Of a stretch of 52,283 nucleotides of DNA, positions 49,927 through 52,283 are shown in pieces. Each line of letters opens with the position of its first letter. Position 1 is the first letter of the stretch. Source of the stretch: Acidobacteriota bacterium (lineage in GTDB: Bacteria > Acidobacteriota > Terriglobia > Acidiferrales > 2-02-FULL-67-57); assembly GCA_016210855.1 (NCBI GenBank), contig JACQTJ010000030.1, positions 1 through 52,283 on the forward strand, written 5' to 3'. The notes under the pieces were generated by a model. It made no database searches. It was not told where the DNA came from and saw only the letters and a list, made by a program, of their open reading frames with translations. The position numbers were made by a program, and so were the translations under genes.

Positions 49927-50196
49927 CTAGGAAAGGTCCTGGAGTTCCTTGCCGGGCTTGAAGCGGACGGCTTTGCCGGGCGGGATGCTGACTTCTTCGC
50001 CGGTGCGCGGGTTGCGCCCGATGCCGGTCTTGCGGGGGCGGACGTTGAAGACCCCGAAGCCACGCAGCTCGATGCGCTGGCCCCGTTCCAGGGCGTGCTT
50101 CATGGCTTCGAACACGGTTTCGACGGCGAGCTCAGCCTTGGATTTACTGACCCCGGTGCGGCTGACGACTTCGTTGACGATGTCGAGCTTGATCAA
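49927..50196 (-). CDS. HU/IHF family DNA-binding protein
   Basis: This 89-residue histone-like dimer subunit has [21 protein letters not shown]-like helices, the beta-arm motif [13 protein letters not shown] and FKPGKEL. It bends and compacts DNA; IHF may assist looping at sigma-54 promoters. The TTG start at 50196 is supported by a strong GGGAGGACGGAG ribosome-binding site and a near-consensus promoter. Confidence 0.95.
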
Positions 50197-50377: not shown

Positions 50378-50932
50378 ATGCCCATCAAGTCTGACCGCTG
50401 GATCCGTCGCCTGGCCCAGGAACAAAAGATGATCGAGCCGTTCGTCGAAACCCAGCAACGCGAGGGGGTCATCAGCTACGGGCTGTCCAGCTACGGCTAC
50501 GACATCCGGGTCGCGGACGAGTACAAGATTTTTACCAACGTCCACACCGCCATTGTCGACCCCAAGCACTTCGACGCCCGCTCCTTCGTCGAATACCGCG
50601 GCGAGATCTGTGTGATACCTCCGAATTCGTTCGCCCTGGCGCGCTCGGTCGAGTACTTCCGCGTTCCCCGCAACATCCTCACCATCTGCATGGGCAAGTC
50701 CACCTACGCCCGCTGCGGCATCATCGTCAACGTCACCCCCTTTGAGCCCGAATGGGAAGGCTTCGTGACGCTGGAAATCTCGAACACCTCGCCGCTGCCC
50801 GCCCGCGTCTATTCGAACGAGGGCATCTGCCAGGTCGTGTTCCTCGAAGCCGACGAAGTCTGCGAAGTCTCCTACAAGGACAAGAAAGGCAAGTACCAGG
50901 CCCAGCAGGGCATCGTCTTGCCCCGCGTCTAG
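50378..50932 (+). CDS. dcd: dCTP deaminase
   Basis: This 184-residue trimeric enzyme converts dCTP to dUTP, the precursor for dTMP. It has [49 protein letters not shown] (catalytic Glu and the nucleotide-binding stretch) and a C-terminal [13 protein letters not shown] lid. AAAGGAG lies five bases before the ATG. With a uracil-DNA glycosylase nearby, the cell handles dUTP made on purpose and uracil in DNA. Confidence 0.95.
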
Positions 50933-50945
50933 GTATGGCGGCGGC

Positions 50946-50974
50946 TTGCTTTGCCCTGAAGTCTGGGCTAGCAT
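50946..50974 (+). promoter_or_regulatory. sigma-70 promoter in front of the mrp leader RNA
   Basis: TTGCTT (50946-50951), 17-base spacer, TAGCAT (50969-50974), just after dcd. Predicted start near 50981. Confidence 0.55.
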
Positions 50975-50980
50975 GGGATT

Positions 50981-51179
50981 GGTTCTCCGATCCCGGCCGC
51001 CTACCGGAGAGACAACCCACGGCGCCGGGGCGATACCGTGTCTCGCGAAAGCGAGACGCGCCCCGCTTGCCCTGAGGCCCCAGGCCGAAGGGCTTGTCCC
51101 GAGGCCAGCCCAACGGGCAGAGCCGAAGGATGTTGGAAAGGAGGACGCGGCTTGCGCCGGCGGGGTGCAAGCTTTTTTA
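50981..51179 (+). ncRNA. candidate structured RNA (small RNA or mrp leader/attenuator)
   Basis: A predicted transcript of about 200 bases has its own promoter, several hairpins and an intrinsic terminator, and no convincing reading frame. At 51027-51064 GGGGCG/CGCCCC encloses a seven-pair stem capped by a GAAA tetraloop. Two tandem hairpins follow at 51069-51093 and 51097-51130. Their 5' arms repeat (GCTTGCCCTGAGGCC and GCTTGTCCCGAGGCC, 13 of 15 identical, 27 bases apart) and both have a symmetric GA/GA internal loop. A CAAC/GTTG pairing (51013-51016 with 51131-51134) could close the set. It matches no RNA family I can recognise by eye; a REP-like repeat cluster is the main alternative. Confidence 0.5.
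51150..51178 (+). terminator. intrinsic terminator 14 bases before mrp
   Basis: GCTTGCGCC (51150-51158), loop GGCGG, GGTGCAAGC (51164-51172), then six T. The nine-pair stem has a single G-U wobble. It must be bypassed for transcription from upstream to reach mrp. Confidence 0.85.
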
Positions 51180-51192
51180 GTCCGGAGAGGCG

Positions 51193-52283
51193 ATGGGCCT
51201 GCTGGGCAGCAAAGACAAGAAGCTGACGCAGGAAGCGGTGCTTGACGCCCTGCGCACCGTCCAGGAGCCCGAGCTCCACCGCGACCTGGTCAGCCTCAAC
51301 ATGGTCAAGGACCTGGCCGTGGACGATGGCCGGGTGTGGCTGACCATCAACCTCACCACCCCGGCCTGCCCGCTCAAAGACACCATCGAGCGCGATGTCC
51401 GCGCCGCTCTGGGCCGGCTCGAAGGCTTCCGGGAAGTCACCATCAAGTGGGACGCCACCGTCCCGCAGGGCCGCGGCGTCGCGGGCCGCGGCACCATCCC
51501 CGGCGTCAAGAACATCATCGCCGTGGCCAGCGGCAAGGGCGGCGTGGGCAAGACCACCGTGGCGGTAAACCTGGCCGTGGCTCTGGCCCGGCTGGGCTCG
51601 AAGATCGGCCTGCTCGACGCCGACGTTTACGGCCCCAACGTTCCCACCATGCTCGGTGTCACCGACTCGCCCGTGGCCCGCGGCGACCGCATCGTCCCGC
51701 TCGAAGGCTACGGGCTCAAGGTGATGTCGATGGGGTTGTTGAACCCCGAGCGCAAGCCCCTCATCTGGCGCGGGCCCATGCTCCACCAGGTGCTCCAGCA
51801 GTTCCTCCGCCAGGTGGACTGGGGCGAGCTCGACTACCTGGTCATCGACCTGCCGCCCGGTACCGGCGACGTCCAGCTCTCCCTCATCCAAACCGTGCCC
51901 CTCACCGGCGCCGTCGTCGTCACCACCCCCTCGGTCGTGGCCCTCGATGACGTCTACAAGGCCATCGAGATGTTCCGCCAGGTGAAGGTCGAGATTCTCG
52001 GCGTGGTCGAAAACATGAGCTACTTCCTCTGCCCCCACTGCGGCCAGCGCACCGACGTCTTTAGCTACGGGGAAGGCAAAACGATGGCCGAAAAGTTTAA
52101 CGTGCCTTTCCTCGGCGAGATTCCGCTGCATTCGAACGTTCGCCTCTACGGCGACACCGGCAAGCCCGTCGTCACGTTCGGCGAGGAGACCCCCGAGGCC
52201 CGGCCGTTTTACGCCGTGGCCCGCCAGGTGGCCGCCGCCATCAGCGTCGCCGCCCTGCGCGAGCCCGGCGCCCCCATCATTCA
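51193..52283 (+). CDS. mrp: Mrp/ApbC iron-sulfur carrier ATPase (cut by the window end)
   Basis: At least 363 residues without a stop, so only a few are probably missing. The N-terminal MIP18-like domain (about 10-90) has EPELHRDLVSLNMV and PACPLKDTIE. The P-loop ATPase domain has the deviant Walker A SGKGGVGKTTVAVNLA, LLDADVYGPNVPTML, IDLPPGTGD, and the Fe-S binding pair CPHC (Cys280, Cys283). It assembles and delivers [4Fe-4S] clusters, for which IspH and the glycosylase in this window are clients in principle. GGAGAGG precedes the ATG; a terminator lies 14 bases upstream, so expression may be attenuated. Confidence 0.95.
   Translation, partial: MGLLGSKDKKLTQEAVLDALRTVQEPELHRDLVSLNMVKDLAVDDGRVWLTINLTTPACPLKDTIERDVRAALGRLEGFREVTIKWDATVPQGRGVAGRGTIPGVKNIIAVASGKGGVGKTTVAVNLAVALARLGSKIGLLDADVYGPNVPTMLGVTDSPVARGDRIVPLEGYGLKVMSMGLLNPERKPLIWRGPMLHQVLQQFLRQVDWGELDYLVIDLPPGTGDVQLSLIQTVPLTGAVVVTTPSVVALDDVYKAIEMFRQVKVEILGVVENMSYFLCPHCGQRTDVFSYGEGKTMAEKFNVPFLGEIPLHSNVRLYGDTGKPVVTFGEETPEARPFYAVARQVAAAISVAALREPGAPII

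Follow-up and report, generated by a model that had tools for sequence, protein, structure and literature searches.

The RNA encoded between dcd and mrp in the window (the whole stretch of DNA analyzed, 52,283 nt) is, by comparison with its homologues, a divergent riboswitch of the molybdenum/tungsten-cofactor type (RF01055) placed directly before mrp. We consider it very probable that this element, a variant lacking P3 and carrying a REP-type repeat, acts in cis as an RF01055-family riboswitch and controls mrp by cofactor-dependent termination; we infer the ligand and the direction of control from the biology of RF01055 and from sister copies located on moaA. The genome of the window (G000) is 87% complete in 130 contigs and belongs, together with G001–G004, to a family designated here f1; the same order also contains the families f2 (represented by G005) and f3, and f6 is another family of the class. 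The element is preceded by dcd (50378–50932; Pfam DCD match) and followed on the forward strand by mrp (51193–52283), which is truncated by the contig end at 52283 and encodes an Fe-S cluster carrier with a DUF59/FeS_assembly_P domain and a NUBPL-type P-loop NTPase (PF10609, E 5.7e-102; PF01883, E 2.4e-23). The closest named relatives of this Mrp were from MAGs of Acidobacteriota, with about 60% identity. A gene for a small HU/IHF-like DNA-binding protein, recognized by eye from its translation, lies at 49927–50196 on the reverse strand, divergent from dcd.

The search of the window against Rfam (E ≤ 10) returned no match to RF01055, the element staying short of the gathering threshold, and the sole match was a spurious one to a plant-virus pseudoknot; the assignment therefore rests on homologues. 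In a DNA search of relatives, conservation within the order was confined to the 5′-most 85 bases of the core, and the copy of the sister genome G001 was 92% identical to the window core. Relative to the RF01055 cut-off of 36 bits, the elements of G005 and G001 scored 54.3 and 46.8 bits with laxer filters, and the moaA copy of G003 39.9 bits; ten relative loci scored 36–71 bits, and the cut-off was passed in 41 of 61 genomes in the first pass. To test membership without circularity, a covariance model (R1) with an RF01055-style structure was built from 18 RF01055 hits, all of f3 and none of f1. R1 gave a single match in the 52 kb, at 50979–51151 (45.9 bits, E 9.3e-12), and also recovered all moaA copies. 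In this alignment P1, P2 and the 3′ strand were placed correctly and P4 was misplaced onto the REP hairpins, so that the correctly placed parts contribute most of the score. The miss by Rfam is probably due to the absent P3, the altered base of P4 and a 68-nt insertion in P5. A preliminary description of this DNA had recognized no known family and had suggested comparison with Rfam, which was negative for the window element itself and positive for its homologues; the Rfam scores of the relatives and the R1 match place the RNA in the RF01055 type.

The window element has the P1–P2–P4–P5 architecture with the conserved junction (CUCCGA, GGAAAGGAG, CCC), the aptamer spanning 50982–51146 on the forward strand. 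P1 is formed by 50982–50988 with 51140–51146 (GUUCUCC/GGAGGAC), and its four core pairs, CUCC/GGAG, are intact in 26/26 sequences. P2 (50991–51030; 50991–51001 with 51021–51030) contains an inner GG/CC stem and a receptor-like CCUAC...CACGG, which resembles the consensus CCUAAG...UAUGG without matching it exactly, and docking of the tetraloop is putative. P3 is absent, as no stem exists between the end of P2 (51030) and the start of P4 (51037). P4 (51037–51060) comprises 10 bp capped by a GAAA tetraloop (51047–51050) that is found in the window and in all sister copies. The CCC within CCCC at 51061–51064, invariant in 26/26 sequences, is the 5′ strand of P5 and pairs with the GG of GGAAAGGAG at 51135–51136. 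The most conserved 3′ strand, TTGGAAAGGAG (51133–51143), unites the P5 3′ strand, AAA and the P1 3′ strand, and GGAAAGG is invariant across all f1 copies. Extra hairpins were observed in some relatives: in the elements L153 and L151 one is inserted in P2 close to the tetraloop receptor, and in f3 (L109–L132) a short one of varied sequence lies between P1 and the terminator.

Covariation supports this fold. In the alignment of 26 sequences, pairing is intact in 94.9% of cells and 11 pairs show double changes; the covariation score was 0.365 vs 0.147 in shuffles (0/500), and slid partners gave at most 0.149. Double changes affect 8 of the 11 P4 pairs, and compensatory changes in P2 were found at four pairs within f1 and f2 and at three in the 26-sequence set. 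In the set lacking P3, 99.5% of cells pair and nine double changes occur, mostly between f2 and f1, which reflect few independent events because the seven f1 copies are related. At the P4 pair 78–101 of the alignment, every f2 and f3 sequence has G-C and 7/7 f1 copies have C-G, which is a clean compensatory change. The whole P4 base of the seven f1 copies reads ACCG (once AGCG)/GCGNCCC, not the canonical AGGG/CCUCCC; its pairing is compensated at one pair, and the outer G-U is lost in six of them. Compensatory changes had been proposed as a test of the RNA, and P2 and P4 display them. The GAAA-capped hairpin described earlier is confirmed by comparison as regards the stem 51037–51060, but its outer part (51027–51031 with 51060–51064), which takes the 3′ strand of P2, finds no support in the comparison.

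The region between the two genes also contains the signals expected for a separate transcript, and in this respect the preliminary description was accurate. A promoter, TTGCTT (50946–50951)-17-TAGCAT (50969–50974), precedes the element on the forward strand, and the motif TTGCNN-17-TANNNT sits 7–10 nt upstream of the element in all seven f1 copies, from five species; shuffles gave a chance frequency per site of approximately 1e-4 to 1e-3. A generic sigma-70 scan did not call a promoter at 50946–50974, because TTGCTT-17-TAGCAT is too distant from the consensus. Transcription probably starts at approximately 50981–50982, at the 5′ end of P1. The RNA had been described as rich in stems, and the 218-nt region indeed folds at −113.2 kcal/mol vs −95.3 kcal/mol in dinucleotide shuffles (z −3.45, 0/200 as stable). 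The strong intrinsic terminator, which represents the expression platform (51149–51178, forward strand), consists of a stem (51149–51158/51164–51173) with a hairpin energy of −17.4 kcal/mol and a T-run to 51178, ending 14 bases ahead of the mrp ATG (51193).

Among the 95 genomes of the order, the element was found in 66 and a strong mrp match in 86, and the two adjoin only in G000 and G003. These are the two of the five f1 genomes in which mrp is assembled, and both have the arrangement dcd–riboswitch–mrp. G003 possesses one copy before moaA and another, with the same promoter, between dcd and mrp, while the second copy of G000 lies before moaA-nadA. In G005, of the sister family f2, dcd adjoins mrp without the element (the dcd–mrp neighborhoods of G003 and G005 were read from sequence and translations); downstream of copies in G003 and G005 lies the gene for MoaA. 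A survey of 80 mrp loci from other bacteria and some archaea revealed no element upstream of mrp, the best score being 14 bits. The most parsimonious interpretation is that the mrp copy arose within f1 by duplication of a copy of the moaA type. The hisS gene is located near mrp on the same strand in G003 and G005.

The sister copies on moaA point to the molybdenum or tungsten cofactor as the ligand. The response of RF01055 RNAs to Moco in E. coli is experimentally supported, and direct binding could not be demonstrated because of the instability of the cofactor (Regulski et al., 2008; PMC2408646). In the same study, RNAs lacking P3 were found to accompany tungsten-enzyme genes and were assigned to the tungsten cofactor. 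This correlation lends some weight to the tentative alternative that the RNA family is the same and the ligand has changed, the swapped P4 base and the missing P3 tuning the aptamer to the tungsten cofactor or another molybdopterin derivative, in which case mrp would answer to another form of the cofactor; moreover, 7/7 f1 copies differ at the P4 base from the 19 sequences of other families. However, the variant is common to moaA and mrp copies, and other families of the class have elements with the canonical P4 base but no P3 (those of f6 lie before moaA), so the lack of P3 alone says little. In addition, no protein with AFOR_N (aldehyde ferredoxin oxidoreductase) was found above the cut-off in G000–G009, where AFOR_N was the single marker of tungsten enzymes used and G000 is 87% complete; PF00384 proteins were present in 10/10 genomes and do not discriminate. 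A more elaborate version, which we regard as rather improbable, is that f1 harbors a re-tuned subclass (P4 swap, no P3) that senses a different molybdopterin-type cofactor and was duplicated to bring Fe-S delivery through mrp under cofactor control.

The P5 loop, which has just 3 nt in the sister G001, contains in the window a 68-nt insertion (51065–51132, forward strand) that is a REP-type repeat, with CCCTGAG...CGAAGGG at 51070–51092 and a degenerate second copy. The two repeat hairpins described earlier (51065–51130) correspond to one good and one degenerate copy. The pattern CCCTGAG-N(4-30)-CGAAGGR was counted 61 times in the G000 genome (reversed control, 2) and as many as 166 times in relatives, and the repeat part matched many scattered places in relatives in the DNA search. 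Similar repeats also occupy the P5 loop of the copies on moaA in G000, G002 and G004. The two 5′ arms of the repeat, GCTTGCCCTGAGGCC and GCTTGTCCCGAGGCC, are 87% identical with a spacing of 27. Their near-identity, noted in the preliminary description, is thus real, but they belong to a dispersed genomic repeat and are not duplicated aptamer modules, and with 61 genomic copies their GA/GA loops do not form the functional core that had been supposed. The likeness to REP-type dispersed palindromic repeats, named beforehand as an observation that would speak against a functional RNA, is limited to 51065–51132; the aptamer core is not dispersed.

We propose that cofactor-dependent termination would operate as follows. 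Transcription would begin at the riboswitch's own promoter and run on towards mrp. At low cofactor levels, GCGCCCCGC (51058–51066), the 5′ strand of P5, would base-pair with GCGGGGTGC (51160–51168; both on the forward strand), which lies in the loop and 3′ arm of the terminator, and this antiterminator would permit read-through and synthesis of Mrp; with the cofactor bound, P1, P4 and P5 would lock, the terminator (51149–51178) would form and mrp would be switched off. Such an OFF switch is suggested by analogy with what was proposed for terminator-bearing RF01055 RNAs (Regulski et al., 2008; PMC2408646). As for its purpose, Mrp may bring 4Fe-4S clusters to MoaA or to cofactor-using enzymes, and a role in cofactor synthesis or use would place Mrp on the schedule of moaA. 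The earlier proposal of a ligand-binding attenuator of mrp with its own promoter is supported by the compensatory changes in P2 and P4, with the ligand deduced from the moaA copies.

The antiterminator duplex of the window has an energy of −26.0 kcal/mol, which approximately 1% of shuffles equal. The P5 5′ strands of eight elements paired better with their own than with swapped terminators (1/20000 permutations), a statistic weakened by the post hoc choice of this antiterminator from three candidate pairings and by the relatedness of the elements; in 2/8 elements the own terminator was not better. The unconstrained minimum of 50979–51192 uses the antiterminator and lies 9 kcal/mol below aptamer plus terminator, whereas with a slightly extended sequence the predicted fold is aptamer plus terminator, and partition functions gave the antiterminator a probability of ≤0.03. 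In f3 the related NNNNTTGGAA and terminator pairing fits the own terminator best (10/5000). Two other candidates were considered: pairing of the P2 3′ strand with the terminator 5′ arm, although promising by eye, was dropped, shuffled arms being equal in 43%, and pairing of the P5 3′ strand with the terminator 5′ arm was unsupported in f1 (410/5000) and supported in f3 (10/5000). Inspection by eye of the elements L172, L173, L174 and L176, which belong to a different family within the class, suggested complementarity between GTGTTTGGA, their P5/J strand, and the terminator arm TCCAAACAC, less exact in L173 and L176, and these strands likely represent an antiterminator.

The Rfam miss, the 68-nt repeat in P5 and a terminator unlike that of the sister copies, whose arm GCCTATACC is conserved, might also indicate a decayed aptamer, in which the REP insertion and divergence have left a leader with promoter and terminator that does not respond to a ligand. 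We consider this unlikely, given that P1, P2, P4 and GGAAAGGAG are intact with compensated changes, that the new terminator still fits its own P5 strand and that G000, G002 and G004 have comparable P5 insertions in their moaA copies. A leader responding to Fe-S status, as had been suggested for mrp, is very improbable. The controlled gene is indeed an Fe-S carrier, and moaA and nadA also encode 4Fe-4S enzymes. However, the related elements precede moaA rather than Fe-S carrier genes and thus point to the Mo/W cofactor, and the aptamer belongs to RF01055, for which the Moco response has support in E. coli (Regulski et al., 2008; PMC2408646). The own promoter and strong terminator would likewise suit an independent small RNA that ends at the terminator and plays no role in mrp control, the other option raised previously, but this is scarcely credible in view of the RF01055 homology, the terminator 14 nt ahead of the start codon and the conserved position, in the cases examined directly before mrp or moaA and in the same direction.

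Overall, the riboswitch before mrp shares with the Moco RNA motif (RF01055; Regulski et al., 2008; PMC2408646) the P1 closure CUCCGA...GGAAAGGAG, the receptor-like CCUA...CACGG of P2, the GAAA-capped P4, the CCC/GG of P5, a terminator or RBS platform and the occurrence of sister copies before moaA. It differs in falling below Rfam detection, in lacking P3, in the repeat within the P5 loop, in its target and in the junction-proximal P4 pair, where C-G replaces G-C and the G-U beneath it is broken. With the “Tuco” form of the same study it has in common the absence of P3, whereas the P4 base is different and the AFOR_N protein was not found in G000–G009. Mrp and NadA are not mentioned in the main text of the 2008 paper, and a literature search combining riboswitch, mrp and iron-sulfur cluster carrier, with subscription journals mostly outside its coverage, found nothing. 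The variant undetected by Rfam, without P3 and with a swapped pair at the base of P4, and the target Mrp thus appear to be new, unreported as far as we found. The Fe-S carrier Mrp would join the targets of this cofactor riboswitch, which would provide an RNA-level link between Fe-S delivery and the supply of the Mo/W cofactor. The lineage-specific P4 change and the repeat insertions probably hide the riboswitch from Rfam, so that counts of the element underestimate its frequency in this phylum. As a natural variant, the swapped P4-base pair may also help to work out how the pocket of the aptamer is formed.

The pair of moaA and nadA (quinolinate synthase) is kept behind the riboswitch in several families (L153:5058-7542, reverse strand; L158:6537-8917; L157; L156, reverse strand), and NAD synthesis may also be under the control of the cofactor.
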